This document shows positions 16,937 to 64,000 of a DNA stretch of 64,000 nt, piece by piece. The notes beneath the pieces are model-generated. The model was given only the letters and a program-made list of their open reading frames with translations, was not told the origin of the DNA and searched no databases. Position 1 is the stretch's first letter, and each line of letters opens with the position of its first letter. The DNA lies in NCBI GenBank assembly GCA_031761875.1, contig CP134492.1, positions 2,976,001 to 3,040,000 of the forward strand, in the 5' to 3' direction. Both the position numbers and the translations under genes were made by a program. The stretch is from Bacillaceae bacterium IKA-2 (GTDB lineage Bacteria; Bacillota; Bacilli; Bacillales; Anaerobacillaceae).

Positions 16937-16947
16937 ACACACCTCCT

Positions 16948-17930: not shown

Positions 17931-17962
17931 ATAGTCTGCACCTCGTAATAGATGCAGACTAT
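17931..17962 (-). terminator. Intercistronic hairpin after the binding-protein gene
   Basis: A 10-bp perfect stem (ATAGTCTGCA at 17931-17940 with 17953-17962) lies between the binding-protein stop and the first permease gene, with only a modest T-rich tail. Such hairpins often allow higher levels of the binding protein than of the membrane subunits by partial termination or 3' protection. Confidence 0.6.
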
Positions 17963-17976
17963 CAAAATACATATTT

Positions 17977-19335: not shown

Positions 19336-19395
19336 AATTTCTCCTCCTTAAGATAGTGAATAAATCACTTTAGTGTTTTTATATTCAACCAGAAA

Positions 19396-20409: not shown

Positions 20410-20453
20410 CCTCACACCCTTTAATAACTAAATTTAATTATGAAAGCGCTTCA

Positions 20454-24218: not shown

Positions 24219-24231
24219 GGAGGTTATGATT

Positions 24232-25479
24232 ATGGAACAAAAATATCAAACATTTGAACAACTGTCCTCAGAAGTAGTTAAATCCCTTCGGGATATGTCC
24301 TATTCCGAATCAAGGATAAGCCAATATCGTTCCGCGTGGCAAAAACTGGCTACTTTTATGGAAAACAATCAGATTGAGTATTATTCAGCGTCAGTAGGTG
24401 GAGCATTTATAGCTGACTTTATTGGTACTGGGAAATACGAGGAATTTAGCCATTGGGAAAAGAGCATAATCCGGTGTGTGGATGTTCTAACTGAATTTCA
24501 GTCTACAGGAACGTTCCAATACAGAAGGGCAAAGAAATCCTACCAATTTTATGGTTGCATCGGTAATCCTATGGTGGATTTCCTTAATCACCGAAAATCT
24601 TTGGGTATTACAGAAAATACGCTTGGTCATTACCGATTAAATCTTCATCGCTTTCTTAGTTTTTTTAATGAAGAAGGAGTCATGGAAACCGAAGCAATTA
24701 AAAAACAACACATTTTAGGATTTGTGAATCAGCTTGGTTTTTATACACCTGCAACGCGCCACAGCATGCTTACCACTTTACGTGGGTTTATGAGATATCT
24801 ACATGACAATGGGTATACAGGGATTGACTTTTCATACCTAATTCCAAAAGACAATTACAAGAAGCAATGTAAACTACCCACGACATATACGAAAAATGAA
24901 GTTGAATCATTAATCAATACTGTTGACAGAAGTAGCCCAAAAGGGAAGCGTGATGCTGCTATGATACTATTGGCTGCACGATTGGGATTGAGGGCTTCTG
25001 ACATCTGTCTGTTGAAGTTTGAAAACATACACTGGGAAAAGAATACAATTACACTTGTTCAACAAAAGACTAAAAATAAGATTGAGCATCCACTTTTAAT
25101 AGAAATAGGAGAGGCTATTATCGATTATCTGAAGTATGGACGGCCTAAATCTGATCTTCCTTATGTCTTCCTACATGCAATCCCGCCATATAACTGCCTA
25201 AATAGATCGACTTTGCATAGCATTGTTACTTTTTATCTCCGTCGTGCTGGCATTAAAAACATAACAGAAAAGAAACATGGTCCTCATGCTTTGAGGCACA
25301 GTCTTGCTGGGCAACTACTGGAACAAAAAATACCCATCCATGTTATATCAGAAGTGCTAGGTCACAAGAATACCGAAAGCACAAAAACTTATTTACGAAT
25401 AGACTTAACATCTTTGAGCCAATGCGCATTAGATGTTCCACTCTTAAAAACGCCATTTTATGCCAAGGAGGTGGAATGA
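24232..25479 (+). CDS. RIT tyrosine recombinase A
   Basis: The 415-residue recombinase has an N-terminal core-binding domain (SAM-like, about 100-200) and a C-terminal catalytic domain. It shows the Arg in ARLGLRASDICLLKFENI, Lys in QQKTKNKIEHPL, the H-x-x-R box HALRHSLAGQLL, the GHKN segment and the Tyr in TYLRIDLTSL. All catalytic residues appear present. ATG at 24232 is chosen: GGAGG is eight bases upstream, too close to the earlier ATG. It overlaps the next gene by one base. In RIT elements three such enzymes act together in excision and integration. Confidence 0.9.
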   Translation: MEQKYQTFEQLSSEVVKSLRDMSYSESRISQYRSAWQKLATFMENNQIEYYSASVGGAFIADFIGTGKYEEFSHWEKSIIRCVDVLTEFQSTGTFQYRRAKKSYQFYGCIGNPMVDFLNHRKSLGITENTLGHYRLNLHRFLSFFNEEGVMETEAIKKQHILGFVNQLGFYTPATRHSMLTTLRGFMRYLHDNGYTGIDFSYLIPKDNYKKQCKLPTTYTKNEVESLINTVDRSSPKGKRDAAMILLAARLGLRASDICLLKFENIHWEKNTITLVQQKTKNKIEHPLLIEIGEAIIDYLKYGRPKSDLPYVFLHAIPPYNCLNRSTLHSIVTFYLRRAGIKNITEKKHGPHALRHSLAGQLLEQKIPIHVISEVLGHKNTESTKTYLRIDLTSLSQCALDVPLLKTPFYAKEVE

Positions 25480-26450
25480 TGCCGAACTATTGTGGTATTT
25501 ATGCTGGTTTAATCGAACAGTACATTGATTTCAAAAGAAACCTCGGTTACAAGTTTGTTGATGCCACTTACACACTTTCGTTATTTGACAGATTTACAAT
25601 AGATAATGCCGTATTAAAACTCGGTCTATCAAAGGAGATTGTTGATAAATGGAGTGAGAAGCGTCCAAATGAATCAGACAAGACACGTTATGCGAGGATT
25701 CATTATATTGCAAAATTTTCCGCCTATTTAAATGATATGGGATATCCATCACATATACCGAGATTGCCTAAAAAGTACAGCAGTACGTTTGTACCACATA
25801 TTTTCTCGAAAAAGGAAGTGAATGCATTCTTCGATGCATGTGATACGCTTAAAGTTAATAGACGATTTGAAACAACTGTGTATGTACTCCCCGCTTTATT
25901 TAGAATGCTATATGGCTGTGGCATCCGTATCAGCGAAGCGTTATCCCTAACATGTAAGGATGTTGATCTTGATGCAAAAAATATTATTGTCAGGGAAACG
26001 AAAAACGGCAAAGACCGAATACTCCCATTATCTGAAACACTAACTGAGGTGTGTATTCAATATAGGAATGTTCGTCCCGGCAAATATGAACCGAAAGGTT
26101 ATTTTTTTATCAAGAACAATGGGCAAAAATGTAATGCCAAGGCAATATATGAATGGTTCAGAAAAATACTCTGGAATGCAGGAATTCCACATGGTGGGAA
26201 GGGTTTTGGCCCAAGAATGCATGACTTTCGTCACACTTTCAGTGTACACTCTCTTGTGAAAATGTCAGAAGCTGGGCTAGATTTATACTACTCACTCCCA
26301 ATATTATCAAAATATCTTGGGCATCAGTCATTAGAGGCTACAGATAAGTATGTAAGGCTAACATCTGACATGTACCCTGATTTAATTAGAGAAGTAGATA
26401 ACGTTTGTGCCTATGTATTTCCGGAGGTTGACCATTATGAAGCCGACTGA
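25479..26450 (+). CDS. RIT tyrosine recombinase B
   Basis: The 323-residue recombinase starts within the stop of gene A (ATGATG, AAGGAGG seven bases upstream). The catalytic domain shows MLYGCGIRISEALSL (Arg), ETKNGKDRILPL (Lys), MHDFRHTFSVHSL (H-x-x-R), LGHQSLEATDKYVRL (His and Tyr). The N-terminal part carries the core-binding domain from about residue 5 to 110. Translational coupling with A and C fits the fixed trio order of RIT elements. Confidence 0.9.
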   Translation: MPNYCGIYAGLIEQYIDFKRNLGYKFVDATYTLSLFDRFTIDNAVLKLGLSKEIVDKWSEKRPNESDKTRYARIHYIAKFSAYLNDMGYPSHIPRLPKKYSSTFVPHIFSKKEVNAFFDACDTLKVNRRFETTVYVLPALFRMLYGCGIRISEALSLTCKDVDLDAKNIIVRETKNGKDRILPLSETLTEVCIQYRNVRPGKYEPKGYFFIKNNGQKCNAKAIYEWFRKILWNAGIPHGGKGFGPRMHDFRHTFSVHSLVKMSEAGLDLYYSLPILSKYLGHQSLEATDKYVRLTSDMYPDLIREVDNVCAYVFPEVDHYEAD

Positions 26451-27456
26451 TTTCTCTCGCTATCTGACAGGATTTCTTACAAAATACCTGCCAGGAGAAA
26501 TGGGGTTCAGTATAAATACGATTGCCTCTTATAGAGACACATTTGTACTTTTCCTTACATTTATCAAGGATAAAAAAGGAATAAAAACAAATTCTCTGAC
26601 GCTGGGCATGATTAATAAGGAAATGGTTATTCACTTTCTTGACTGGATAGAAACAGAGCGTGGCTGTAGTACAGCCACAAGGAACGTCCGCCTTGCGGCA
26701 TTACACTCTTTCTTCCAATATCTCCAGTATCAGAGCCCCGATAATCTTTTGGAATGGCAGAGAATCCTTGGAATCCGGGTTAAGAAAACAGAAACAAAAT
26801 CAATCAGTTACCTAACGCTTAATGGGATCAGACTACTTTTGGAAATGCCTGATCAGTCAACTAAAATAGGACGAAGAGATCTTGCTCTTTTGTCAATTAT
26901 GTATGAAAGCGGTGGAAGAGTACAGGAAATCATTGACCTCACTCCGTCACAAGTACGTTTTGACAGACCATGTACTGTAAAGTTAATTGGTAAGGGGAAT
27001 AAAGCCCGGATAGTCCCTCTGATGGATGCTCCGTTAGATTTATTAAATCGATATATGGATGAGCAGGGGCTGTTAAGTTTGTCAGCAAACATGTACCCAT
27101 TGTTCTGTAACAAAAGAGGAGAAAAACTGACCCGGGCAGGGGTGAATTACATACTAGATAAATATGCACGCAAGGCTCGTATTAAAGATCAAATATTAAT
27201 CCCAGAACGATTTAGCTGTCATTGTCTGAGACATTCAAAAGCTATGCACTTACTCCAAGCAGGAGTTAATCTCATATACATCCGTGATATACTAGGTCAC
27301 CGTTCTGTCCAAACAACTGAAATTTACGCTAAGGTAGATTCAAAACAAAAAAGAGAAGCAATTGAAAAAGCATATACAGATGTTGTACCAAAAGGTGCAC
27401 CTTCTTGGCAAAAAAGTGGAGATTTATTGGAATGGCTAAAAAGATTTGATAAATAA
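26437..27456 (+). CDS. RIT tyrosine recombinase C
   Basis: The 339-residue recombinase overlaps gene B by 14 bases; CGGAGG lies nine bases before the ATG. The catalytic residues are in MYESGGRVQEIIDLTP (Arg), LIGKGNKARIVPL (Lys), CHCLRHSKAMHLL (H-x-x-R) and LGHRSVQTTEIYAKVD (His, Tyr). It resembles the XerC/D-like third member of RIT trios. About 65 bp after its stop the right inverted repeat begins. Confidence 0.9.
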   Translation: MKPTDFSRYLTGFLTKYLPGEMGFSINTIASYRDTFVLFLTFIKDKKGIKTNSLTLGMINKEMVIHFLDWIETERGCSTATRNVRLAALHSFFQYLQYQSPDNLLEWQRILGIRVKKTETKSISYLTLNGIRLLLEMPDQSTKIGRRDLALLSIMYESGGRVQEIIDLTPSQVRFDRPCTVKLIGKGNKARIVPLMDAPLDLLNRYMDEQGLLSLSANMYPLFCNKRGEKLTRAGVNYILDKYARKARIKDQILIPERFSCHCLRHSKAMHLLQAGVNLIYIRDILGHRSVQTTEIYAKVDSKQKREAIEKAYTDVVPKGAPSWQKSGDLLEWLKRFDK

Positions 27457-39462: not shown

Positions 39463-40500
39463 TTATAGTAATATCTTTCGTTCTTTACTTAACTTCCCTT
39501 TTAGTATATTTAATGGTGAGTAGCGGTCATGTTGATTTTTCAATGCTTTATTTGAAAGATGAGTATAACGCAATACCATACGTATATCTTTATGTCCTAA
39601 TATCATCTGTAAGTGCCTAATATCGCCACCTGCTTCAAGGAAAATGGTAGCACCAGTATGCCTAAATAAGTGGGGATGAACCCGTTTTGTAATACCAGCC
39701 TTTACAACGAATTGTTTTAAACGTTTTCTGAAATGGTTTGCTTCCATTGGTTCTCCATAGTTTGCTAAAAAAATATAATCAGTTTCAAATTCTTCATTCT
39801 CGTCTATCAGTTCAGTCAACAGTTTCACTGTACTTTTTTGAATAGGTATTATCCTTGTCCTTCTACTCTTTGAGGTTTCAGAACGAATAGTTATTACACC
39901 ACTTTCCGCATCAATATCCGATGCCTTTAGTGATAGTGCTTCATTAATTCTTAAGAAACTGTCTAGTAGGACGTTCATTAATACGTAATCTCTAAAGTCG
40001 GTATATCTACGTAGATTAGGTGCATTTAGTAATCTCTGAAGTTCATCCAAAGTTAGGACAATTATTGCTTCATCATTCTCTTCTACCTTCTTCACTAATT
40101 GTAAAGGGTTACTATCTACAATACTTTCGTCACAAAGGAATTTGAAAAATGTTCTTAGTGTTTTTAAACGAGTATTCACAGTGACTGGTGATAATCCAAT
40201 TGTCTTTTCTTTATCGTTTTTAAATGCATGACCATCAAATCTAACTTTCTCTTTAAGCATAAAGACAATGTAGTTTCTCATGATTTCAGAAGTCATTTTG
40301 TTAAAGATTTTTTCAATACCTTTAGAGTCAAGATATTCAATGAAATAACTGTAATTTTCATGGTAGCTTTTTATAGTTTTAACCGTTCTACCTTCAGCGG
40401 TTTTTGCTATTATAAATTTCTCAAATAAGTAATCCAGTGAATGCGACTTTCCAACTAATTTCCTTTCAGTTTTAACTCGTTTACCTAATCTTTCAGCCAT
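39463..40500 (-). CDS. int: Tyrosine integrase of the tRNA-Val element
   Basis: The 345-residue enzyme has the N-terminal SAM-like core-binding domain (about 25-130) and catalytic domain. That domain shows LLDSFLRINEALSL (Arg; the usual T-G-L-R reads S-F-L-R), ETSKSRRTRIIPI (Lys), HPHLFRHTGATIFL (H-x-x-R-H), LGHKDIRMVLRYTHL (His and Tyr). ATG at 40500 follows AAAGGGG; the upstream ATG does not. It lies 173 bp from the intact tRNA-Val gene, the standard place for an integrase that recombines the tRNA 3' end. It would insert and excise the 19.7 kb element. Confidence 0.9.
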   Translation of the reverse strand: MAERLGKRVKTERKLVGKSHSLDYLFEKFIIAKTAEGRTVKTIKSYHENYSYFIEYLDSKGIEKIFNKMTSEIMRNYIVFMLKEKVRFDGHAFKNDKEKTIGLSPVTVNTRLKTLRTFFKFLCDESIVDSNPLQLVKKVEENDEAIIVLTLDELQRLLNAPNLRRYTDFRDYVLMNVLLDSFLRINEALSLKASDIDAESGVITIRSETSKSRRTRIIPIQKSTVKLLTELIDENEEFETDYIFLANYGEPMEANHFRKRLKQFVVKAGITKRVHPHLFRHTGATIFLEAGGDIRHLQMILGHKDIRMVLRYTHLSNKALKNQHDRYSPLNILKGKLSKERKILL

Positions 40501-40672
40501 AAAAAAATCCCCTTTCAATTTGTAATTGAAAAGGAATTTGCATGTAACCACCGTGTATTTATAGGCGACACCCTGATAATTATAGCACCGCCACCATGTA
40601 CTTTAATATACGTATAGTCCACTGTTTATCAACCTAGCAATAACGTTGATTTAACGCCATTCAGTATTCATA

Positions 40673-40722
40673 ATGACCCGTGGGGGGCTCGAACCCTCGA
40701 CCTCCACCCTGTCAAGGTGGCG
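40673..40722 (-). other. Right attachment site within tRNA-Val
   Basis: Identical over 50 bases to the left copy at 20943-20992. Here the sequence continues into the 5' half of the tRNA, so this side holds the intact gene restored by integration. Confidence 0.9.
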
Positions 40723-40746
40723 CTCTCCCAGCTGAGCTAACGGATC
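40674..40746 (-). tRNA. tRNA-Val (anticodon GAC)
   Basis: The 73-base gene folds fully. The acceptor arm GATCCGT pairs with ACGGGTC, the D arm contains AGCTCAGCTGGGAGAGC, and the anticodon arm CCACC-TTGACAG-GGTGG gives GAC in the loop. The variable loop is AGGTC and the T arm is GAGGG-TTCGAGC-CCCCC with one wobble. CCA is not encoded. It reads GUC valine codons. The gene now lacks its native terminator, which is beyond the left end of the integrated element at 20902-20927. Confidence 0.95.
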
Positions 40747-52274: not shown

Positions 52275-53822
52275 TTATCTTATCTTGATCTTTGTCTTTA
52301 TCTTGATCTCTACATCCATCGATAACCAAGGTTTTGCTGGAGGGTTATTCTCAAATATATAAACTCTCCTCTTCGGCTCCTCCTCTTCTTCTGCTTCTTC
52401 TTCTTCTTCTTCTTCTTCCTCTGCTTCTTCTTCTTCTTCTTCCTCATCATTTTCTTCTTCTTCGATTTCTTTCACAGCTTCTACTTTTTCCGTATCTTCT
52501 GTATCTTCTGTATCTTCTGTATCTTCTGTTTCGTTCTCAAGTTCAACTTTATCAATGAATTCGTCAGTTTCTTCACTAACTACTGGTTCTACTAGTTCTA
52601 GTTCTAATTCTACTTCGTCTATTTCACGTTCCTCCACCTCTAAACGATCGGTTCCAATTTGAATGTTATTTTTTATTTTCTCTTCCATTTCGGCCCACAC
52701 TGAGGAAATATCACTGACAACGCGATCCCAACTATATTTTTCTTCTGCAAGCTTTCGTCCGTATTTCCCTAGATCAATTCGTAAGCTTTGGCTAGACAAT
52801 AGCTGAGATAGATAATTTGCAAATTCTTGTGGGTTCTCTGGATTTTCGATTACAAAGCCATTTTTATTCACTTCAATAACCTCGGCGTTCCCTCCCCGGG
52901 CAGTCGTGACGATTGGCAAACCAGCAGCCATGGCTTCATAATGAACTCGTGCTAGTGGTTCTTGCCATTGAGAAGGGCAGACAAATATATCAGAGGCAAT
53001 AAACCAGTTTTGAATTTCATCCGGTGACACAAAACCTGTCGTAACAACAGGTGTCTTGATCCGCTCACTAAGAGCACGGACATAAGCTATATAGTCGGTA
53101 ATGTCGTTTTGACTAAACCATTTACTTCCAACTAGAACTAAGGCTATATCTGAATGCTCACGCTCTAATAATGGAATTGCTCGAACAAGAACATCAGCAC
53201 CTTTATTTGCAGACAGCCTACCTGCAAACAAAATAACTTTTTTCCCTTCAAGACCATGCTCTTTTCTAACTGCTTCTCGAATTCGCTTTCCCTTCTCTGT
53301 ATAGGAAGGAACGAAGCGATCTAAGTCTACCCCTGAATAGATGGTTTGTAATTTTGGTGCCGCTTCTGGATAAAGTTCAACAAGTGCTTTCCCAATATAA
53401 TCACTAATTGTGATAATTTTATCTAGTTGTGCAATTGCATTTTTTGCTTCTTCTGGATCGATTTTCTCGCGCTTAAACATATCGTTATGCATACTTAAGA
53501 CGATACGTGTAGTAGGCAACACTTCCCGGACTGGGTTTACTAAGCGCGGTCGATTAAAGACATGAATTAAATCAAAGGACTGGTCCTTTAAATAATCAAC
53601 TACACCTTCAACGTAAATCTCTACTAGTTTTCCTGGAACACGTACGTAATTAATCCCGTCAACTGTCTCCCTTTCTGGTAATGAAGGGTCTGTAATACCT
53701 AAAATCGTAATATCATGATTTTTACTTAAACTCGGTACTGATCCGGAAATGTAAGTTTGAATAGCGCCGCCTAATATTGGTGGAACTGGTAACTTCTCAG
53801 TACAAATAATTAGTACTTTCAT
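52275..53822 (-). CDS. cotSA: CotSA-like GT4 glycosyltransferase with a long acidic tail
   Basis: Residues 1-375 form a GT-B enzyme of the CotSA type with LGGAIQTYISGSVP, LFAGRLSANKGADVL near 196 and the E-x7-E motif EPLARVHYEAMAAGLP near 290. From about residue 385 to 490 follows an unusual low-complexity extension: mixed Glu/Val, then TEDTEDTEDTED tetrapeptide-type repeats, then long Glu runs. It ends with a basic tail (IKIKTKIKIR) after a PKRRVYIFENNPPAKPWL block. B. subtilis CotSA is a coat-associated glycosyltransferase of about 377 residues, so the tail is an addition. The gene overlaps cotS by four bases. Confidence 0.9.
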   Translation of the reverse strand: MKVLIICTEKLPVPPILGGAIQTYISGSVPSLSKNHDITILGITDPSLPERETVDGINYVRVPGKLVEIYVEGVVDYLKDQSFDLIHVFNRPRLVNPVREVLPTTRIVLSMHNDMFKREKIDPEEAKNAIAQLDKIITISDYIGKALVELYPEAAPKLQTIYSGVDLDRFVPSYTEKGKRIREAVRKEHGLEGKKVILFAGRLSANKGADVLVRAIPLLEREHSDIALVLVGSKWFSQNDITDYIAYVRALSERIKTPVVTTGFVSPDEIQNWFIASDIFVCPSQWQEPLARVHYEAMAAGLPIVTTARGGNAEVIEVNKNGFVIENPENPQEFANYLSQLLSSQSLRIDLGKYGRKLAEEKYSWDRVVSDISSVWAEMEEKIKNNIQIGTDRLEVEEREIDEVELELELVEPVVSEETDEFIDKVELENETEDTEDTEDTEDTEKVEAVKEIEEEENDEEEEEEEAEEEEEEEEEAEEEEEPKRRVYIFENNPPAKPWLSMDVEIKIKTKIKIR

Positions 53823-54922
53823 ATAGAATTACCTTCTTTCCATTCTTCTCTCAGTTGCTCGATTACTGCCCATTTCGTTTTATCTATTTCAACGATCCTA
53901 CTGACTAAGCTATCTAGTTCGCCGTCCATAAATAAGTTTGGTTCATAAAGCAATTCCTTGACATTTTTATAAAATAAGTTTGGTAGCGACATATCGATTA
54001 GGAGAATTTCAAAAATTCCATCTTCAATTGGGTTTGTCTCGTGATAAGCATCAATCATTCCTTTAGCCCATGTGAAATCCCAGCATCCAAGGTCATCCAT
54101 TGTACCTGAAATCAACTTCTGTAAATCCCTAATCGGAAGATCATATGCAACTCCATCTAGATCTATGATCCACATACCATCTGCGCCTCTTTGTCCATTT
54201 GACCAACCATAATCTTGATGAACTAAACCCCATTCTTTATTTCCTCGTGCTGCCAACTCATAGTAAGAGGACTGTTCAAGAAGTTGTAATGCATTTCGAG
54301 CTTGGTCTTCAAACATGTCTATAACAGCTAAAATGGTTGAACTCGCTTGCATTTCAGGATACGCCTTAGCAACATCACGAAACCAATCCATTTTCTTGAC
54401 CATTTTTTTATACGTCTTTGGCCAACGATATAACCTTGAGGCTTTTTCAGCTCCATTTGGCGGTGTGTATCCTTTTGAAAGCTGATGAAACTCACCAATT
54501 GCACCACAAAGTAATTTAGCTCCTTCTAAGTCTTTTCCTACCTGTTCTAGCGGCTCAATCCATTCTGCAACAAACCAAAGCTTCCCTCCCATTTCCACAA
54601 AATTCTCTCCAGTTTTTGTTTTGATAATAGGAGGAACTTTCGCTTTTTTTTCTACGACTAAATACTCTTGTGCCCCTAAACTAAATAGGCTTCGTGTTGG
54701 TCGTCGATGCAAAATTTTAAGACTCATCGGCCCTTTATCTGTATCAATTTTCCAAATTAATCCACCCTTATCAGCTTTTGTTGTAATTACTTCCATTTGA
54801 CTTACGTTCATATCGTAGTGAGTAACTACTTGTTGTGCCATATCCTCAATAAAAGCCGGGACAAAAAAGTCTCCAAGCGTTCCATCTAAATCCCAAGGAA
54901 TAATTAATTGTTCCTCATCCAT
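53819..54922 (-). CDS. cotS: CotS-family spore coat kinase-like protein
   Basis: The 367-residue protein belongs to the CotS/CotI/YtaA group of aminoglycoside-phosphotransferase-like folds. GLIWKIDTDKGPMSLKILHRRP near 55-75 is the Lys-bearing strand pair, HQDYGWSN near 222 is the catalytic loop with Asp, and WIIDLDGVAYDLP near 235 is the metal-binding loop. Active members (CotH-like unrelated) aside, CotS is a coat protein in B. subtilis transcribed with cotSA, as here. AGGAGGGGAAG precedes its ATG. Together they mark sporulation in the mother cell. Confidence 0.9.
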   Translation of the reverse strand: MDEEQLIIPWDLDGTLGDFFVPAFIEDMAQQVVTHYDMNVSQMEVITTKADKGGLIWKIDTDKGPMSLKILHRRPTRSLFSLGAQEYLVVEKKAKVPPIIKTKTGENFVEMGGKLWFVAEWIEPLEQVGKDLEGAKLLCGAIGEFHQLSKGYTPPNGAEKASRLYRWPKTYKKMVKKMDWFRDVAKAYPEMQASSTILAVIDMFEDQARNALQLLEQSSYYELAARGNKEWGLVHQDYGWSNGQRGADGMWIIDLDGVAYDLPIRDLQKLISGTMDDLGCWDFTWAKGMIDAYHETNPIEDGIFEILLIDMSLPNLFYKNVKELLYEPNLFMDGELDSLVSRIVEIDKTKWAVIEQLREEWKEGNSI

Positions 54923-55631: not shown

Positions 55632-55952
55632 TTACTTGTCACAATCGTCTTCAAATCCTTCTGTTTGGTAGAGTTCTACCACATCTTCGAGCTTGAATTG
55701 AAGAAGCATTTGGTTTTTAATAATACCTCTTAGTGTTTTATCAATTGAATGATTCACTGATAAAAAATCTTCGAAATTAAGTTTATTTTTCTTGTATTTC
55801 TTAATAGCAACCTGCAACTTCTCAGCTTCGGCGTTCAATATGTGAGATAAACCTATTTCTTCTAATGCAATAGAAGATAGTAATAGATTTAGTGCTTTTT
55901 TCTTAGTAATTGTTACTTTAGGGTTAATATTTGGAATGTTTGGCATTGACAT
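55632..55952 (-). CDS. Small helical protein with conserved spore-associated look
   Basis: The 106-residue product contains ALNLLLSSIALEEIGLSHIL, a pattern that I know from a widespread group of small Firmicute proteins of unknown function, often near spore coat or exosporium genes. It begins with Pro/Asn-rich residues (MSMPNIPNINP) and ends acidic. No catalytic motif. A ferritin-like helical appearance (E-E-x-G-x-x-H) is suggestive only. Confidence 0.55.
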   Translation of the reverse strand: MSMPNIPNINPKVTITKKKALNLLLSSIALEEIGLSHILNAEAEKLQVAIKKYKKNKLNFEDFLSVNHSIDKTLRGIIKNQMLLQFKLEDVVELYQTEGFEDDCDK

Positions 55953-56092
55953 CTAGAGCCCTCCTTTGATTATTTCTTTTCATTATATGTAAAAGATTTT
56001 TTTTTGTTCTTATGCACATAAGCATGATCTGATGCTTACAATGTATAAATGGTTAGATGTTCTGATTAAAAAAATCAAAAAGGTGATTATCA

Positions 56093-57316
56093 ATGGAAGC
56101 AATTGTTTTTATTGGGACCAATAAATCTGGATCAAGCCGGGATGCCATAAAAGCTGCTCAAAATCTAGGGTATTACACAATATTATTTACAGATAGAGAA
56201 AACATCGTAAAACAAAGAGTTGATTATCCAGATGTGGATTTGATGATAACCATTGACATTAACAATATTGAAAAAATGAAAAAGAAAATTGCTAAACTAC
56301 AACATCAAGGAAATCTTATCAAGGGAATAGTCAGTTTTATCGACCAGCGTGTGTTAACCGCTGCGATCTTAGCAGAGGAATTCTGTGAACATACTTTTAT
56401 CTCAAAATCGATTAAGATCATGGAAAGTAAACTGTTAACTCGGCTGCACTTAAAAGATCTAACTTATACACCTAAATTTGCGACTATTCATAAAGACGAG
56501 CAGACAGAATCAACTTCACCAAAAAAATATCCTTTTATTTTAAAAGCTCCTCATTCAACTGCTTCAAAAGATGTCCATCTAGTTAGAGATCAATCAGAGT
56601 TTAGTCAGGTTGTTCAAAAACTGTTCACTAAATTCCCAAGCGATCCAATACTAATGGAGGAATATATTGATGGTGATCAAATTTTAATAGAAGTTATGGT
56701 CATTAACGATACACCTTGTATTATTGCTGTTATTGAACAAGAAATCTCTAACGATAATCAATTTGTGATAACTGGGTATAAACTTTTATTAGAACCTCTT
56801 GGTGAATTGCAGAAAGAATTAGAAACGATCGTTAAAGAGATCGTTAGATTACTGGAAATCAGTAATGCTACGCTACACCTTGAACTAAGGAAATCAAATA
56901 ATGATTGGAAAATAATTGAGATTAATCCAAGGGTTTCTGGAGGCGCAATGAACAGGATGATTTCCTTTGCATATGGGTTTAATTACGTAGAAGAAACTAT
57001 TAAATTGTTATTGGGTGGTGAACCAAACATAATACCCTTATATAAGCGACCAATTTTCACCCAATATATATCGTTAGCCCTAAAAGGATATCTCCATAAA
57101 ATAACAGGGAAAAGCCGAGCGTTACAACATCAAGGAATACTTGAGGTGTACACAAAACCCCGGAAAGGTACAAAAATTTTCCCGACGAGAACAATGGGCC
57201 AAAGATATGGCTATATAATAGCAACTGGTGAAACTGCCGACGAAGCTCGTCAAAATGCAAAAATGGCAGCCGAAAAAATTGAATTCAAGATTATTCCATC
57301 TAAACTTCATAGCTAA
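56093..57316 (+). CDS. ATP-grasp ligase, paralogue 1
   Basis: The 407-residue enzyme has the PurK/carbamoyl-phosphate-like ATP-grasp layout: FIGTNKSGSSRDAIKAAQ N-terminal Rossmann-like domain, YPFILKAPHSTASKD near 145 with ATP-binding Lys, ILMEEYIDGDQI near 190, and the Mg-binding EINPRVSGG near 282. It most likely ligates an amino acid or carboxylate to an amine, consuming ATP. It is about 45% similar by eye to the protein at 59959, with which it shares the opening motif. It leads a two-gene plus-strand unit with the unknown gene at 57401. Confidence 0.88.
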   Translation: MEAIVFIGTNKSGSSRDAIKAAQNLGYYTILFTDRENIVKQRVDYPDVDLMITIDINNIEKMKKKIAKLQHQGNLIKGIVSFIDQRVLTAAILAEEFCEHTFISKSIKIMESKLLTRLHLKDLTYTPKFATIHKDEQTESTSPKKYPFILKAPHSTASKDVHLVRDQSEFSQVVQKLFTKFPSDPILMEEYIDGDQILIEVMVINDTPCIIAVIEQEISNDNQFVITGYKLLLEPLGELQKELETIVKEIVRLLEISNATLHLELRKSNNDWKIIEINPRVSGGAMNRMISFAYGFNYVEETIKLLLGGEPNIIPLYKRPIFTQYISLALKGYLHKITGKSRALQHQGILEVYTKPRKGTKIFPTRTMGQRYGYIIATGETADEARQNAKMAAEKIEFKIIPSKLHS

Positions 57317-57400
57317 ATAGTTAATTGGTTGATCATAATCGTTTTAATTCGTGAAATTCCATCTTCGATTCTTTAGAATATATGAAATGAGGTTTGTTTT

Positions 57401-58204
57401 ATGACAGAACCTAGTGATTTTGATTGCATCTTAAATAATAAAGAATTAGCTGATCCAGCATCAAAAATATTTGAAACAGTTTTTTATGATGAAACTATCC
57501 TTTCAAATTTAGTTTTTTCTAATGCGGAAATAATAAGTCTATTATTAGACTGCAATAATTTTCTTGCTGATTTTTCAATTAATAAAATTCTAGATTTATC
57601 TGAATCAATTAATAGATTTATTGAAACAATATATATGAAAGAATGGCTAACACTTAAAAAACTAGAAATTAGCTCAGATCTTAAGTTCCTTAAACAAAAT
57701 CACTCTATGACAGAGGAAATTAGACTAACAATTGAAAATAAATTTTTAATGAACGACGATTATCCTGATTCTATTGTGAAATTAGAGCATGTACTGATTG
57801 AATTTATGAATTCTGTTGAGATATATGCTAGTAAGGAAGAATATCAAACAAATTATGCAAAAAAACTTTTTAATTTAATTAAAAATCAAGTGGAAATAGG
57901 GTTATCTCAACTAATCCAGTTGCAAGCTCTTATCGTAAGAAAAAGGAAATTATTTAATAATCTTATTATCAAAAATTATGAAGTAAGCGCTACCTCCTAT
58001 GCTCATCATCAAGATGACCAAGCCAATCAAAGTGAGCAACAAAGGAATGAATTCAAACCATTTCCAAAGGTGAAGTTACCGTTGGAAAAAGTCATCCATA
58101 ATATCGGAATTTACTATTTAAAAAATCAAGGTTCATATCTTCCTAAAATTTTTGTTAAAGAATTTCCTCTTATAAAACCGTGGTTAAATGAAAATATTTT
58201 TTAA
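57401..58204 (+). CDS. Hypothetical protein, 267 residues, paired with the ATP-grasp gene
   Basis: GAGGTTTG lies upstream of the ATG. The protein is soluble and largely helical, with a central TKKTLEISSDL-like helical region and a polar segment (HHQDDQANQSEQQRNEF near 205-222), then a conserved-looking end VKLPLEKVIHNIGIYYL. No family recognised. Position 84 bp after the ATP-grasp gene suggests a common transcript; it may be the substrate carrier or an accessory subunit. Confidence 0.55.
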   Translation: MTEPSDFDCILNNKELADPASKIFETVFYDETILSNLVFSNAEIISLLLDCNNFLADFSINKILDLSESINRFIETIYMKEWLTLKKLEISSDLKFLKQNHSMTEEIRLTIENKFLMNDDYPDSIVKLEHVLIEFMNSVEIYASKEEYQTNYAKKLFNLIKNQVEIGLSQLIQLQALIVRKRKLFNNLIIKNYEVSATSYAHHQDDQANQSEQQRNEFKPFPKVKLPLEKVIHNIGIYYLKNQGSYLPKIFVKEFPLIKPWLNENIF

Positions 58205-58319
58205 AGGTGATTTTCACTATAGAACAATTACCCTATATAATACGATCAAAAGACCTCACCACACTTTACTAAGCAAGTTTACTTTTTTGTGCATTTTTTT
58301 GCGGTCTTCACTAAGTCAT

Positions 58320-58368
58320 CTCCAAAAAAATAATGGACCAGTATGATGGTCTATTATTTTTTTGGAGA
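58320..58368. terminator. Bidirectional terminator
   Basis: TCCAAAAAAATAATGGACCA pairs with the matching stretch from 58347 that ends in TTTTTTTGGA. It separates the plus unit at 56093-58204 from the minus-strand ligase genes. Confidence 0.85.
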
Positions 58369-58371
58369 TGC

Positions 58372-59775
58372 CTAATCCTGTTTTCTATTGCCCCTTAAAG
58401 AACGCGTCAATTTAGCCATATCCTTACTGCCCATAATTCCTTTTACAAGAACAATGCTTTCACTGTTTACAATAGAATTTAATTGAGAATATATATCTTC
58501 ATATTTTGCAAAGGTATATAATTTTCCTTTGAACCCTTTTAATTCAGCCTCAACTGAAATTTCCTTTGATATCTCACCTATCGTAACTAAAGTATCGATA
58601 TCGCTACCTGCAATTATTTGACCGATCTCGCGATTAATCGCGAGCGACCGATCAGCTAGTTTCTTCATGTCACCAATAATAACTTTTTTAGCTTTTTCTT
58701 CGCTAGATATTTGCCCTAATACTTTAATGGCAGCTTTCAGAGAAACTGGATTCATGTTCCATGTATCATCAATAATAGTTGCCCCATTTAAGCCAATGAC
58801 CTGCTCAAGATGCCTTTCAACGTCTTGATAACTTTTTAATCGCTCGATTGCCTCTGCTATTTCAACTCCGACAGTATGGACAGCTGCAATCGCTGTTAGT
58901 GCGTTGTATACTTGATGTTCACCAAAGCTTGGAATAACAATCAACCATTCTTTATTATCGAAATGTAAAGTAGACTCCATACCATTTTCTCTAAATATAA
59001 TGTCTGAAGCACGATAATCAGCGTTTTCTGATAATCCAAAGTAAATGACTTTTCCATGAAAGTTTTGCAAACTTATTTTTTTCGTCTTCTCGTCATCAGA
59101 ATTTAAAAGAAGTACCCCATTTGAATTTAAACAGTTAACCAACTCCGCTTTTGCTTCAATATAGCGATCGACCGTTTTGCATAAATCTAAGTGATATTCG
59201 CCTATGTTTGTGATAATCCCAATTGACGGTCTAAAATATTTACAGTGCTTCGTTACATCTCCGGGCCTCCCGACCGCTGTTTCAAAAACACCAACTTCCG
59301 TTTCGTCATCTATGCCGACAAGATAATTAAATGATTGATAGACATTATTAAAGCTTGATACAGTTGAATTCACCTTATATTTAAACTGTAAAATATGTTT
59401 AATCATCTCTTTTACTGTTGTTTTACCTGAAGTACCGGTAACCGCAATAATCGGTATTTCAAACCTATCGTGATAGTAGTTAACGAATTTCCAATAGGCC
59501 TCTTCGATATTTTTGACAAGGATAATTGTGCAATCAGATAACTTATCAAATTGACGGTAATATTGATCGGTTATAACAACGGCTGAATTTAACAGATCAA
59601 TGGCTTGCCAATTTAGATGTTTTTTTTCCTTTAAAAAAACAAGTAAATGTTGAGCATCTTTACTAAAGATATGTTTTGAAATGCTGACTGCATCTGTAAC
59701 CAACAAATCCTCCCTACCGACAACAATTTCTCCGTTTAACAATTGCTTAAGTTGACCGGCTGAATGAACCTCCAT
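58372..59775 (-). CDS. MurF-like Mur ligase, paralogue 1
   Basis: The 467-residue protein has the MurF three-domain layout: an N-terminal substrate domain (1-105), then the ATP-binding domain with VTGTSGKTTVKEMI near 112, then DDTWNMNPVSLKAAIK near 325, matching MurF's D-D-x-Y-N-A-N-P-x-S-M-x-A-A. Usual MurF adds D-Ala-D-Ala to UDP-MurNAc-tripeptide, but the surroundings suggest a different amino-acid ligase. ATG at 59775 has AGGAGG seven bases before it; the TTG six bases earlier does not. Members of this superfamily also include CapB, CphA and FolC. Confidence 0.85.
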   Translation of the reverse strand: MEVHSAGQLKQLLNGEIVVGREDLLVTDAVSISKHIFSKDAQHLLVFLKEKKHLNWQAIDLLNSAVVITDQYYRQFDKLSDCTIILVKNIEEAYWKFVNYYHDRFEIPIIAVTGTSGKTTVKEMIKHILQFKYKVNSTVSSFNNVYQSFNYLVGIDDETEVGVFETAVGRPGDVTKHCKYFRPSIGIITNIGEYHLDLCKTVDRYIEAKAELVNCLNSNGVLLLNSDDEKTKKISLQNFHGKVIYFGLSENADYRASDIIFRENGMESTLHFDNKEWLIVIPSFGEHQVYNALTAIAAVHTVGVEIAEAIERLKSYQDVERHLEQVIGLNGATIIDDTWNMNPVSLKAAIKVLGQISSEEKAKKVIIGDMKKLADRSLAINREIGQIIAGSDIDTLVTIGEISKEISVEAELKGFKGKLYTFAKYEDIYSQLNSIVNSESIVLVKGIMGSKDMAKLTRSLRGNRKQD

Positions 59776-59958
59776 TAACAAACCTCCTCTCGTTATTTAG
59801 CTTTAGCGAATAGAGCATGTAAGCTATTAGAATTGTGTCTTTTCTTATATCCAATGAGCCTAGCCACTGCATGTTTTAAGCACAAACGCTTTGTTGTTTC
59901 AAAAAAAATCTATGAAAATTGCCCACCTATAGATGCGGGCAATGATGACTTAGGCAAC

Positions 59959-61191
59959 TCAAGCTAATGACAGAGATTCAAGATGAAATTGAATTTCACT
60001 TGCTGCTGTTCGAGCAATGTTCCGCGCTTCTTCAGGATAATCAGCTGATGCCAATACGTATGCGTAGCGGTTACCCATTGATTTTGCAGGAACAAGAAGC
60101 GTTCCCTTTCGAGGCTTTATATACACTTCTTTAACTCCGTCATAAGCTTTCGCTCGATTTTTTCCGGTTACCTTTATTAATTTCCCTTTTGAGCTAACCG
60201 TGATAAAGTGAGCATAGACAGCTTTATTAATCTTTCTGATTAGATCTGGTTCTTCCCCTAGAAATAATCGCACAGTCTCTTTTGCCAAGTTAATCCCTGT
60301 ACTTTCTCTAATAATGCTATTCATCGCTCCGCCCGACATTCTAGGATTAATTTCGATTAATTTCCACCCCAATGATGTTTTACGTATTTCTAGATGACAA
60401 GTTCCATTTTCCAAGCCTAGCTCTTGAATAATACTAACAATCGTATCGTGGAAACTTTGATAGTCGTCTCCCTCAAATTCGGCAGGTAGACTATATCCTG
60501 TTACAATAAAACGATCTTGTTTTGTAATTTCTTGATTCATCGTACCGATAATCGATATTTTCCCTTTATATACAAATACCTCAGCTAAAAATTGTTCACC
60601 TAGTAAATACTCTTCAACGAGGATCGGATGCTCAGGATATTTTTTTTTGAGGTATCCTAAAGCTTTTTTAAGTTGACCAATACTTTCAACTAATAGAACA
60701 TCTTTTGATCCATTAGAAACCGGAGATTTTACGATTAGCGGAAGATGTGCAGCATATTTTTTTGACCATAATTTTATAGACTCTTGATGATTAAAAATTA
60801 AAAAATAGGGGGTTGCTGGGTGATTCTGCAACTCTTCTCGGAATCTTATTTTATCCTCCATTTTATACAGTGCTTTGCTAGATAAATGAGCGAGCCCTAG
60901 TTGTTCAGAGAGCATTGTTGAATAGTATACATATGGATCAATTAAACTAATACAAGCTTTCACATCTTTACCTTGTAATCGCAGAAAATCGATTTCTTCG
61001 AGAATACTCTCTGAATCAAGTAAATTGCTTTTAAACACCATTTGGTGTACATCCGGAAATTCATCGCGTTGCTCCAATTGCTTTTCTTTGTCAGTAAACA
61101 AAACCGTAAAATAACCTAATTTGTCTGCTGCTTTTATCGCTTCTCTACTACTGCCTGACTTATTAGTTCCTATAAAGACGACTGTTCGCAC
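59959..61191 (-). CDS. ATP-grasp ligase, paralogue 2
   Basis: The 410-residue enzyme parallels the one at 56093: FIGTNKSGSSREAIKAADKL at the start, LPLIVKSPVSNGSKDV near 150, ILVEEYLLGEQFLAEV near 193 and EINPRMSGGAMN near 280. It starts with GTG after AAGGAG. It lies between two MurF-like genes on the same strand, so ATP-grasp and Mur-ligase functions are probably combined in one pathway. Confidence 0.88.
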   Translation of the reverse strand: MRTVVFIGTNKSGSSREAIKAADKLGYFTVLFTDKEKQLEQRDEFPDVHQMVFKSNLLDSESILEEIDFLRLQGKDVKACISLIDPYVYYSTMLSEQLGLAHLSSKALYKMEDKIRFREELQNHPATPYFLIFNHQESIKLWSKKYAAHLPLIVKSPVSNGSKDVLLVESIGQLKKALGYLKKKYPEHPILVEEYLLGEQFLAEVFVYKGKISIIGTMNQEITKQDRFIVTGYSLPAEFEGDDYQSFHDTIVSIIQELGLENGTCHLEIRKTSLGWKLIEINPRMSGGAMNSIIRESTGINLAKETVRLFLGEEPDLIRKINKAVYAHFITVSSKGKLIKVTGKNRAKAYDGVKEVYIKPRKGTLLVPAKSMGNRYAYVLASADYPEEARNIARTAASEIQFHLESLSLA

Positions 61192-61251
61192 AAAATATTC
61201 AACTCCTTACGTGCAGTATTTTCAATTCGTAGTTTGTTGTATTACTCTGTT

Positions 61252-62364
61252 TTAGCTTTTTTGATTGGAATAGTAATCTACTAAAAACCTTACCGTTTCA
61301 AACATCTTTAATCCGCTTGCACCCTTAATTAAAATAGTCGACCCGGGTTCAATTAATTTTATTAAATCTTCATGAAGTTTTTTTACAGACGTTCGACTGT
61401 AATGGTTAACTTTTTTAGGATTAAAACCTGCTTCTAATGCTCCTACAGTGATATTTTCAGAAATATTCCCATACGTTAACAAGTAATCTATTCGTTTATT
61501 TTTTAGATAACGCCCAATCGCCTTATGTTCGCTTTCATGACTCTCTCCTAAACCAGGCATACTTCCTAATACAGCAATTGTTTTTTCTCCTTTTATTTCA
61601 CTTAAAGTATCAATGGCAGCCCTCATCGCATCTGGAAATGCATGAACTGTATCATCAATTAACTTAATATCATGATTAAACGTAATCATATCTAAGCGAT
61701 TTTTTGGTCTTTTAACGCTGGTTAACCCTTCTTGAATTTCGCTGACACTAAACCCTAGTTGGTCGGCAACCCCTATCGCAAACAATGAATTGTATAAGTT
61801 ATATTCACCAATAACCGGGGTCGAAAAGTTCTGTTCTTTTCCTGAGATAACTACTTTAAATGATAAACCTCGATCCGTTTGTTGTACTGCGGTTGCTAAA
61901 TAATCAGCACCGGGTTTCATTCCTATCGTTACTAACTTACCCTTAAATCCGTTTACCTGAAGCAATTTTGAGCCTTCATCATCTTTATTAATAAATAGTA
62001 TCCCCGCTGGATTCATCCCTTTGATTAATTCCGATTTGGCTTGAGCGATACCATCAATTCCATCTTCGAAATTACCAATATGAGCCTTACCTACATTCGT
62101 GATTACTGCTATATTTGGTTTAATAATTTCACAGTGTCTCGTTATAACTCCAGGATATGCCATCCCATATTCCAAAACTAACGCTCTATGAATCAAGGAA
62201 ATTTGTTCGAGATGCTGTTCTGTATGATCGGTTCTGTTCCAATAATCACTTGATTCGAATGTAATCCAACGCGTTCGTAAAATAGATGCGATGAAAGCCT
62301 TCGTTGTTGTTTTCCCTGCACTACCAGTAACCGCAATTGTAGGTCTCTGAATTTTAAAATTCAT
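61252..62364 (-). CDS. MurF-like Mur ligase, paralogue 2 (no N-terminal domain)
   Basis: The 370-residue protein begins directly with the ATP-binding domain: VTGSAGKTTTKAFI (P-loop at 14-20), ITNVGKAHIGNFEDGID near 90, then DDTVHAFPDAMRAAID near 225, the MurF-like signature. The N-terminal UDP-MurNAc binding domain of MurF is missing, so the substrate must differ. GGGAGGAAAGTAAGG precedes ATG. It is three bases after the YheC/D-like gene, so these are co-transcribed. Confidence 0.87.
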   Translation of the reverse strand: MNFKIQRPTIAVTGSAGKTTTKAFIASILRTRWITFESSDYWNRTDHTEQHLEQISLIHRALVLEYGMAYPGVITRHCEIIKPNIAVITNVGKAHIGNFEDGIDGIAQAKSELIKGMNPAGILFINKDDEGSKLLQVNGFKGKLVTIGMKPGADYLATAVQQTDRGLSFKVVISGKEQNFSTPVIGEYNLYNSLFAIGVADQLGFSVSEIQEGLTSVKRPKNRLDMITFNHDIKLIDDTVHAFPDAMRAAIDTLSEIKGEKTIAVLGSMPGLGESHESEHKAIGRYLKNKRIDYLLTYGNISENITVGALEAGFNPKKVNHYSRTSVKKLHEDLIKLIEPGSTILIKGASGLKMFETVRFLVDYYSNQKS

Positions 62365-62366
62365 CC

Positions 62367-63434
62367 TTACTTTCCTCCCCCCTTTAAAAGATCCTCTTTA
62401 TGGTGTTCGTTTGCTAAATACTTACAATAGCGAATCATATTTTGCACAACATCCATTTCTAAATAAAAGGTAGGTGGGCATCCAGGTCGCCAGTTTACTT
62501 CATAGATCCATAACTTTTTCATATTATCAAGTGCTGCATCAATTCCTAATTCATCGATAGATTCAGAAAAATGTTTTTGCTGTAATTCCTCGATATGTTC
62601 AGCTAATCGTAATGCGAATTTTTCTAAATAGCGCTTAATGTTGAAAAAGTCATTTCCAAATTGTTGCTTTAAAAAAGGTTCTAAATAATTCATTGAACCG
62701 CCTTGATTAATATTAGAAACAATCGAACCACTTGGACCAATACGTGGATAAATAGACGTGATCACCCATTTACCTTCCCCATTTTTTTGAACATGAAGAC
62801 GAAAATCAAATGGGTTACCATCAGTCGTTCTACACATTAAATAAGGCTGAATAATATGAGATTCTTCCTTCAATTTTTCATTAATAAAGCTTCTTAATTC
62901 TTCATATGATTGGATCGTTTCGACGTTTCCTTTTAATAGCCTAAATTGGTCACCAATTCTTTCAATTAAATTGATATCTTGACCTTTACGCCCATTGACA
63001 GGTTTAAGGACAACTTTTCTATACAGATCAAGAAAATCAAAAAAATGTCTTGAATCTTTGACAATTTCAGATGGAATTAAATATTGAGAGAATTTCCCAG
63101 CCTCTTTTAAACGTTTATAAACATTCATCTTATTCCCAATAGAGTGTGTCGTAAATGGAATAGTTTTCTTTAGTCTGTTAATTATTTCAATAGACTTATT
63201 TAACTTTTCTGGGCTTCCAGCGTTATAAATAACATCAGGAAATGGTAACTCTTTTTCTTGCCAATCACCATTTTCATAAATAAAACCAAGAATAGTTTTT
63301 TGCTTAAAATCCACTCTTTTCGGAGAAAAATAGATGAGTTCAGCGCCTTCCGCCTTTGCAATCGCTGCGTATGGATAGGCTTTTATGACTGTACGAGGAT
63401 CTTTACGATGATGCAACATGCCTATTCTTATCAA
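62367..63434 (-). CDS. YheC/YheD-type ATP-grasp spore coat-associated protein
   Basis: The 355-residue protein opens with IGMLHHRKDPRTVIKAYPYA, the pattern of the YheC/YheD family, and has VVLKPVNGRKGQDI near 140, IIQPYLMCRTTDGNPFDFRL near 195 and IYEVNWRPGCPP near 325 as ATP-grasp parts. YheC and YheD of B. subtilis are coat-associated proteins made in the mother cell. Start TTG at 63434 has GAGGTG before it; a GTG nine bases earlier overlaps that site. It is first in a three- or four-gene minus-strand operon with both MurF-like genes and the ATP-grasp paralogue 2. Confidence 0.85.
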   Translation of the reverse strand: MIRIGMLHHRKDPRTVIKAYPYAAIAKAEGAELIYFSPKRVDFKQKTILGFIYENGDWQEKELPFPDVIYNAGSPEKLNKSIEIINRLKKTIPFTTHSIGNKMNVYKRLKEAGKFSQYLIPSEIVKDSRHFFDFLDLYRKVVLKPVNGRKGQDINLIERIGDQFRLLKGNVETIQSYEELRSFINEKLKEESHIIQPYLMCRTTDGNPFDFRLHVQKNGEGKWVITSIYPRIGPSGSIVSNINQGGSMNYLEPFLKQQFGNDFFNIKRYLEKFALRLAEHIEELQQKHFSESIDELGIDAALDNMKKLWIYEVNWRPGCPPTFYLEMDVVQNMIRYCKYLANEHHKEDLLKGGGK

Positions 63435-63548: not shown

Positions 63549-64000
63549 TTACGAGTAAATGGCATTTACTAATAAGGGATAAAAATAACCAGTTAATCCT
63601 CGAAAACACACTTCCAATCCAATTAAAATGACCTGGCCACTTTTATCACTTACGATAACGGGATTTTCTTGTCCCTTATGATGATCTGGCCAGTAACCAG
63701 AAATAAAGGCATTATCCCCATTAGTATAGGTTGCTAATACTTCAACCTCGTCGATATTAGTAAACCATGCTGGGCGATAGACAAACCCAATGTCATTTTT
63801 ATTAAAACCAGCAGTTATTGGCGTGTTTTTATAATCAACTTTAACAATGGCATTGTCGTTCCATCCAGAAACATTTGTTTTGACCTTTGTTAATCTAAAA
63901 ACTTTTTGGATCGCTCTTGTAGCTCCTGCTCCTATCGCAATTACCTTACCACCTCTATTAACAAATGATCTTATATTTTCGACGCACGCCTGCTGCTGTT
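63549..64000 (-). CDS. M14-type peptidase (or related), C-terminal end (partial)
   Basis: The minus-strand frame runs from the window edge to the stop at 63549-63551. It encodes GGKVIAIGAGATRAIQK, then VYRPAWFTNIDEVEVLATY, then GYWPDHHKGQENPVIV and GQVILIGLEVCFRGLTGYFY. This order (a Gly-rich amidotransferase-like strand, a V-x-A-x-Y strand, and a late G-x-V-x-L-x-G-F/L..R strand) matches the C-terminal domain of Bacillus M14 carboxypeptidase-like proteins. The catalytic domain would be outside the window. Its 5' part is missing. Confidence 0.6.
   Translation of the reverse strand, partial: QQQACVENIRSFVNRGGKVIAIGAGATRAIQKVFRLTKVKTNVSGWNDNAIVKVDYKNTPITAGFNKNDIGFVYRPAWFTNIDEVEVLATYTNGDNAFISGYWPDHHKGQENPVIVSDKSGQVILIGLEVCFRGLTGYFYPLLVNAIYS

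Follow-up and report, generated by a model that had tools for sequence, protein, structure and literature searches.

Fused and clustered ATP-grasp and MurF-like ligases suggest a spore-associated peptide or amino-acid polymer pathway in Bacillaceae

We analyzed a 64,000-nucleotide stretch of the genome of Bacillaceae bacterium IKA-2 (contig CP134492.1, positions 2,976,001 to 3,040,000; hereafter the window), in which genes for ATP-grasp and MurF-like ligases lie together. The cluster comprises two ATP-grasp proteins of the L-amino acid ligase (LAL) type (A1 and A2), two MurF-like ligases (M1 and M2) and a YheC/D-type ATP-grasp protein (Table 1). We consider it well supported that these ATP-grasp and Mur ligases act in one shared pathway, because they are fused in two, probably three, architectures, recur as conserved sets and co-occur across genomes. 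A role of the pathway in the spore is moderately supported, because CotZ-type and YheC/D genes accompany the ligases and sporulation-type -10 boxes precede them in relatives; for the genome of the window alone this role is weakly supported.

The central observation is that YheC/D and a Mur ligase lacking the N-terminal domain occur in relatives as one protein of about 720 residues, with the ATP-grasp half first and the Mur half second. We detected 43 open reading frames (ORFs) of this kind: 41 are uncut, found in 41 of the 80 named loci defined below, and the other two are cut by the locus end. The fusions come from nine genera: Lysinibacillus, Psychrobacillus, Sporosarcina, Neobacillus, Domibacillus, Heyndrickxia, Peribacillus, Metasolibacillus and Bacillus. 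In an alignment of 37 of the 43 ORFs, the residues with catalytic roles in ATP-grasp enzymes and the P-loop, Glu, His and Lys that form the catalytic residues of the Mur core are invariant; the same four Mur features are retained in the cluster Murs. With starts assigned mechanically, 36 of the 41 uncut fusions have a YheC/D match beginning at residue 10 or earlier, and the other five have longer 5' ends. For the fusion of locus L094, Pfam lists the YheCD and Mur domains, weaker overlapping ATP-grasp models and nothing else. A full-length, stop-free fusion is present in 11 of 348 genomes (order draw), and a full-length one in 9 of 398 (class draw). Beyond the 11, there are apparently degraded copies with eight internal stops (G313:C1:1845534-1847651) and with one (G038:C1:521085-522989).

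In the window the counterparts of the two halves are separate genes: the YheC/D stop lies 2 nt before the M2 start, and the frames differ. Adjacent but separate YheC/D and Mur pairs also occur in G338, G075, G822 and G390, so an assembly error is not likely to account for the split. The stand-alone M2 of L058 nests among the fusions in the tree of Mur domains, which suggests fission after fusion at that locus.

The layout of the fusion recalls cyanophycin synthetase CphA1, which carries ATP-grasp and Mur-ligase domains in one chain and makes a branched amino-acid polymer, as described in PMC9262961. An earlier reading of the window, made from the sequence only, had drawn this comparison for separate genes. 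The parallel proves closer than that reading knew: in relatives both activities are fused, in the same ATP-grasp-then-Mur order. Among PDB matches to the fusion model, the first that is long enough to cover both halves is a cyanophycin synthetase, 7lgn_B (rank 35; 838 columns, E=2.7e-17). We nevertheless rejected the fusion as a cyanophycin synthetase: the representative L068:9247-11412 scores 63.1 bits against the TIGR02068 cut-off of 850 and has no N domain, its ATP-grasp half is of the YheC/D type, and its Mur half is MurF-like. The similar layout was apparently reached independently.

The ORFs and Pfam agree with the sequence-only reading on the places of the two ATP-grasp, two MurF-like and single YheC/D genes. 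Its extent of six genes needs widening: the six ORFs are real, and the cluster extends beyond the window, as far as genome position 3,047,540 or thereabouts. The cluster as a whole holds four MurF-like, two LAL-type and two YheC/D-type ligases. A1 and A2 are paralogues with 41% identity over query residues 1-404, and a search of A2 against its whole genome returned, at E <= 0.001, solely itself and A1. Both keep the residues conserved in their family. Among solved structures, A2 best matches L-amino acid ligases, the top one being BL00235 (3vot_A, E=1.6e-13). A1 and A2 share the ATP-grasp_4 and LAL_C2 domains with BacD-type L-amino acid ligases, and differ from these in being clustered with Mur ligases and, in many loci, with a CotZ-type gene. 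The window YheC/D protein matches PF14398 with 221 bits, over the gathering score of 26.8. YheC and YheD are, to our knowledge, coat-associated proteins without a known reaction; the cluster protein shares PF14398 with them and differs in being directly joined to a Mur ligase, by adjacency or fusion.

By sequence and by fold alike, M1, M2 and the Mur half of the fusions match MurF best, and a pair of ATP-grasp and MurF-like enzymes recalls Ddl and MurF. The cluster Murs are nonetheless distinct from the housekeeping enzyme. The MurF of the same genome scores 412.2 bits against TIGR01143, with adjoining Mur matches that read as murE and murD, while the four cluster Murs score 237.3-263.5 bits, below the cut-off of 288.6. 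Among 31 genomes (this one and 30 relatives), all 31 have one MurF over the cut-off, at 403-476 bits; cluster-type Murs (E <= 1e-50, 237-266 bits) are found in two of them, this genome and G009, and G022 has one extra Mur match of 182 bits beside murF. In a maximum-likelihood tree of 91 selected Mur rows, 20 housekeeping MurFs form one clade (support 100/100), the fusion Mur domains, M2 and the stand-alone M2s make up another (100/99), and a third (100/95) consists of the M1-type proteins. The third splits into an alpha clade (99/95), with M1b of this genome, and a beta clade (99/95), with the window M1 and M1c of this genome. The branching order of the three main clades is weakly placed (89/68). 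A grouping with known housekeeping MurF and PurK/PurT enzymes, which the sequence-only reading had named as the outcome that would count against it, was not what we found: sub-cut-off scores, separate clades and the L-amino acid ligase match of A2 rule out a housekeeping MurF or purine-pathway identity.

Pfam lists no Mur N-terminal domain for M1 or M2. For M2 this bears out the earlier statement that the second MurF-like protein lacks the domain binding UDP-N-acetylmuramic acid (UDP-MurNAc). The structure model of M1 (pLDDT 91.9, pTM 0.91) matches MurF over its full length, N-domain fold included (4qf5_A, TMq 0.84, 472 columns). However, the DSR and G-x-x-x-DGH-F motifs of the N-domain, which function in UDP-MurNAc binding, are lost in M1, and use of the normal MurF substrate by M1 is therefore unlikely. 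The alignment of M1-type proteins comprised 49 of them. The structure model of the fusion has a pLDDT of 85.5 and a pTM of 0.55, so the relative placement of its halves is uncertain, and its Mur half matches MurF.

The conservation of the set was assessed in 80 named loci, the best 80 of 109 confirmed relatives of A2, in which an A gene is present by construction; the loci are cut at 10 kb or at contig ends, and some absences may stem from that. The expectation that the set would recur in other Bacillaceae was borne out. A CotZ-type gene is found in 51 loci, an M1-type Mur in 53, the fusion in 41 and a multi-repeat NlpC/P60 protein in 41, and all four are found together in 29. Among the 41 fusion loci, 39 have M1, 37 NlpC/P60 and 34 CotZ. 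A single locus has an A gene without any listed partner. Co-occurrence was also counted in 348 genomes, which include related ones and are not independent, so that p-values serve as a rough guide; the counts exceed what chance would give. With a strong A match defined as more than 180 bits (54 genomes match at E <= 1e-20, 35 of them strongly) and a YheC/D, M2 or fusion match defined by E <= 1e-90 (34 genomes), both are present in 32 genomes, A alone in 3, the other alone in 2 and neither in 311. By genus, both are present in 19, A alone in 1, the other alone in 2 and neither in 104; 22 genera have either.

The NlpC/P60 proteins appear to be maintained as enzymes with one catalytic repeat: a Cys and His motif is kept in 39 of 42 proteins of at least 250 aa, and in the proteins read by eye the Cys/His motifs lie in the first repeat, the other repeats being without cysteine. 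The poly-gamma-glutamate (gamma-PGA) hydrolase PgdS has three NlpC/P60 repeats of which only the second is active, according to PMC5880399. The cluster protein is similar in having a single repeat with catalytic motifs, by eye the first.

Other architectures in relatives join the same domains differently. These were met in two sets of 12 extra loci, picked from matches for their context and not randomly. A reverse fusion of about 800 aa, with the Mur domain first and YheC/D second, is present in six genomes (L170, L171, L173, L184, L185 and L186). A gene of the Asp/Glu-racemase family adjoins it in five of the six (all except L173), and the L185 protein exceeds the cut-offs of a cysteate-racemase model and of the amino-acid racemase subfamily asp_race. 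A third architecture is the probable LAL-Mur fusion at L172 9539-11689, in which LAL_C2 (24.0 bits, cut-off 29.4) lies ahead of a Mur domain in a single protein; it adjoins an S11 D-Ala-D-Ala carboxypeptidase gene, with an A gene nearby. S11 genes also adjoin N-domain-less Murs in L174 and L187, and one is found in 1 of the 80 named loci (L109). An N-domain-less Mur adjoins CapA/PGA_cap in 5 of 12 context-chosen loci (L182, L183, L189, L190 and L193), an arrangement that may parallel PgsBCA/CapBCA; CapA was spotted by eye and then tested, and may be missed elsewhere. The window cluster differs from PgsBCA: no CapA was recognised by eye in the cluster, the rest of the genome not having been searched, its Murs are MurF-like, and it has extra ATP-grasp ligases. 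The racemase, CapA and S11 neighbours point towards amino-acid polymers and D-amino acids, in these relatives and not in the window cluster. At L114 12289-14664, a protein of 791 aa with a weak YheC/D match only lies amid other YheC/D-like genes.

The upstream regions of several of the relatives' genes are enriched in the -10 box CATAnnnTA, which fits the sigma-K consensus and partly that of sigma-E. In the 80 loci the box precedes 49 of 74 M1 genes (8.2 in shuffles), 33 of 90 A genes (9.2), 21 of 38 CotZ genes (1.8) and 14 of 51 YheC/D-like genes (c0/c6; 3.9), compared with 55 of 513 other genes (38.5). Within 120 nt it is found for 47 of the 74 M1-type Mur genes and for 40 of the 513 other genes, and 39 of the 47 Mur-gene boxes are sharply placed, at -27 to -36. 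These counts include related species, so their p-values overstate independence. In groups made of genera or single unplaced strains, at least half of the M1 genes have the box in 12 of 16 groups, and at least half of the other genes in 0 of 33. The full sigma-K-like pattern was found for 15 A genes (2.0 in shuffles), 11 Mur genes (1.4), 3 CotZ genes (0.1) and 1 fusion gene (0.4), and the sigma-E-like pattern for 6 A genes (6.0), 10 Mur genes (4.3) and 23 other genes (23.7). Many fusion genes without a CATAnnnTA box, at several loci in L066-L080, have the element GAACaTCTGTCC...TGAATTTAaTA upstream. The B. subtilis genes yheC and yheD are given as members of the sigma-E regulon in PMC517825.

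We propose that the cluster encodes mother-cell, ATP-dependent amide ligases whose product, a peptide or a polymer of amino acids, is destined for the spore surface, a reading to which we give about an even chance. The LAL-type enzymes A1 and A2 would couple free amino acids to form a dipeptide, or append a residue. The YheC/D domain and the MurF-derived domain would add residues alternately to the growing chain, like the halves of cyanophycin synthetase, and the three-domain MurF-like enzymes of the alpha and beta clades would introduce additional amide or isopeptide linkages into the same product. The multi-repeat NlpC/P60 protein, with catalytic Cys and His in one repeat, and here also the M14 peptidase, would trim or release the product, which would be laid on a CotZ/CotY-type outer layer where the genome has one. 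The likeliest monomers would be acidic, probably D-configured residues linked through side chains. From the neighbouring genes and the type of hydrolase we infer a polymer, rather than an oligopeptide, with acidic D-residues and isopeptide links; its monomers, its linkages and its location in the spore are all conjectural to this degree. We hold a broader claim more tentatively, as a possibility that falls somewhat short of even: that ATP-grasp-Mur pairs are a second, independently evolved class of template-free polymer synthetases spread through spore-forming Bacillota, and that the spores of many genera carry an undescribed isopeptide polymer containing D-amino acids.

Several results weigh against a mother-cell pathway that builds such a product for the spore surface. 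In 22 of the 80 loci the A gene has no companion other than CotZ, YheC/D or the pair of them, and A and Mur genes are also found outside the full set. Scattering, which the sequence-only reading had set against itself, is thus seen for components (the A genes of these 22 loci, and the N-domain-less Murs beside CapA) and not for the set. The CotZ assignment was tested on one representative, which exceeds the PF10612 cut-off (57.8 bits, cut-off 24, E=1.9e-15) but reaches 38.3 bits against the cut-off of 90 for NCBIfam CotZ_rel, and the genome of the window has no CotZ. Co-occurrence with coat genes is seen for CotZ-type genes in relatives and was not seen there for CotS and CotSA, as detailed below. 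As to the sporulation promoters that the sequence-only reading had proposed to look for, -10 boxes are enriched upstream of the relatives' Mur, A, CotZ and c0/c6 genes, but in the window genome the 200 nt upstream of 12 cluster genes contain neither a strict sigma-E nor a strict sigma-K site. The box is not enriched upstream of the fusion (2 of 39, 3.0 in shuffles), NlpC/P60 (2 of 43, 4.3) and c7 genes (0 of 16, 1.2), nor within 120 nt of stand-alone YheC/D genes; at the group level, A genes have it frequently in just 7 of 34 groups, and CotZ genes in 6 of 16; and the full two-part sigma-K pattern also exceeds shuffles in other genes (21 versus 5.9, n=513). The fusion lacks the CphA N domain before its ATP-grasp half and superposes poorly on cyanophycin synthetase (TMq 0.34, rmsd 24.7). 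The comparison with PgdS is one of architecture, taken from the paper and not from sequence. The racemase is absent from the loci through L114, the 80 named ones among them, and the hint of D-amino acids stems from differently built relatives. Of the spore-associated polymer or peptide modification proposed by the sequence-only reading, what holds is a conserved, non-housekeeping system with CotZ-type and YheC/D neighbours and with sigma-K-type boxes in relatives; the product, its chemistry and its place on the spore remain putative.

The same genes might instead make or remodel a peptidoglycan-type peptide, such as a cortex or germ-cell-wall variant or a lipid- or UDP-linked stem, rather than a free polymer. 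MurF is the closest family of the cluster Murs, M1 keeps the N-domain fold, and the NlpC/P60, M14 and S11 hydrolases belong to families that cleave the peptides of peptidoglycan; the M14 protein has a weak match to the murein tripeptide amidase MpaA (28.7 bits, cut-off 157). In six of the 80 loci (L096, L097, L098, L106, L111 and L113) an undecaprenyl-diphosphatase-like gene, named by eye (c15), lies upstream of the A gene, and CotZ comes after the A gene. We nevertheless judge this explanation unlikely: M2 and the fusions are without the N-domain, M1 has lost its motifs, and a normal MurF is present besides in all 31 genomes surveyed. The recurring neighbours are YheC/D and CotZ-type genes, and inspection by eye showed no partner resembling MraY or MurG, no search having been aimed at them. 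A comparable combination of several Mur ligases and an ATP-grasp protein belongs to the pseudomurein gene set, which serves a peptide-containing wall according to PMC11915815. That wall is archaeal, and the window Murs score far below the pMur cut-offs.

A peptide could also be built on a protein. In a modification of the RimK or tubulin-tyrosine-ligase kind, the ligases would add chains to coat or crust proteins: CotZ-like proteins or, here, the acidic tail of the CotSA-like glycosyltransferase. Tubulin-tyrosine ligase is a weak match of the window YheC/D protein (20.3 bits against a cut-off of 20.1), CotZ-type genes are frequent in the relative loci, and the tail of the window protein is long and rich in Glu. 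Yet that protein has no counterpart above 150 bits in the 80 loci, the CapA, racemase and NlpC/P60 neighbours favour an amino-acid polymer, and we know of no Mur-type ligase that acts on proteins; we consider this explanation as doubtful as the peptidoglycan one. Still less probable is a bacilysin-type pathway, in which a diffusible dipeptide from the L-amino acid ligases is elaborated by the Murs and YheC/D. A1 and A2 have relatives among the L-amino acid ligases and a weak one in dapdiamide synthase, and transporter-like genes, named by eye, recur in some flanks (c4 in 23, c8 in 14 and c5 in 13 of the 80 loci). However, these lie further out, mostly in Lysinibacillus flanks, inspection by eye revealed neither carrier nor oxidative tailoring genes, and CotZ-type genes and sigma-K-type boxes suit a spore structure better.

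We found no paper in the open-access literature on a combination of YheC, ATP-grasp and Mur ligases with the spore coat or exosporium. The natural fusions of YheC/D with Mur suggest a testable reaction for YheC/D: sequential amide-bond formation with the Mur partner. Given that a shared peptide-ligase set often lies beside a coat gene, our results suggest that many spore-formers may carry a spore amino-acid polymer. A surface polymer, if that is what the pathway makes, would be an added chemical layer on the spore, and might help account for the differences between B. subtilis spores and those of Lysinibacillus, Psychrobacillus, Sporosarcina and Neobacillus. If the proposal is true, it would also provide a second natural ATP-grasp-Mur polymer machine to compare with cyanophycin synthetase.

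Table 1. Genes of the ligase cluster and its neighbours (positions refer to the window)
Feature	Length	Position	Strand	Domains and remarks
ATP-grasp A1, L-amino acid ligase type	407 aa	56093-57316	+	ATP-grasp_4 + LAL_C2 (E=2.8e-18)
X	267 aa	57401-58204	+	no family match; membership in system uncertain
M1, MurF-like ligase, beta clade	469 aa	58372-59781	-	Mur_ligase_M + Mur_ligase_C; three-domain MurF fold, N-domain motifs lost
A2, second L-amino acid ligase-type ATP-grasp	410 aa	59959-61191	-	ATP-grasp_4 + LAL_C2 (E=4.5e-20)
M2, N-domain-less MurF-like ligase	370 aa	61252-62364	-	Mur_ligase_M + Mur_ligase_C; groups with Mur half of fusions
YheC/D-type ATP-grasp	358 aa	62367-63443	-	ATPgrasp_YheCD PF14398, E=2.1e-65; counterpart of ATP-grasp half of fusions
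M14-type zinc carboxypeptidase, C-terminal end	677 aa (whole protein)	63549-64000, runs past window end	-	Peptidase_M14 E=6.6e-13
NlpC/P60 protein, four repeats	590 aa	beyond window end, same genome		
Two further MurF-like proteins	464 and 462 aa	beyond window end, same genome		
YheC/D-like protein	262 aa	beyond window end, same genome		
CotS-family coat protein, neighbour		53819-54922	-	TIGR02906 298.8 bits, cut-off 172.7
CotSA-like glycosyltransferase family 4 (GT4) protein, neighbour		52275-53822	-	Pfam; long acidic C-terminal tail

The CotS-family gene and the GT4 glycosyltransferase gene, which we take to be cotSA, do lie beside the cluster in the window, as the sequence-only reading had noted. 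This adjacency does not extend to relatives: no CotS match above 100 bits and no CotSA match above 150 bits was found in the 80 loci, and the pair is not supported as part of the system. The ORF X, earlier taken as a partner of the ligases, exists and may not belong to the system. Pfam and NCBIfam give no match for it, a search of 7 genomes yielded a single weak relative, and the 80 named loci contain no match; X is not supported as a conserved partner. A protein of 106 aa encoded at 55632-55952 has a relative in G003, at locus L006, where X also matches weakly. The M14 peptidase may be a local addition, because it has no homologue in the loci through L114, these including the 80 named.

Elsewhere in the window, possible mobile elements were named by eye: three consecutive tyrosine-recombinase-like ORFs at 24226-27456 and an IstB-like ATPase at 22642-23388. 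An integrase-like ORF at 39463-40551, beside a tRNA-Val gene at 40674-40746, likewise suggests a mobile element. A run of putative carbohydrate-use genes at 5874-20415, also read by eye, includes a ROK kinase, large glycoside enzymes, parts of an ABC transporter and a LacI-type regulator.

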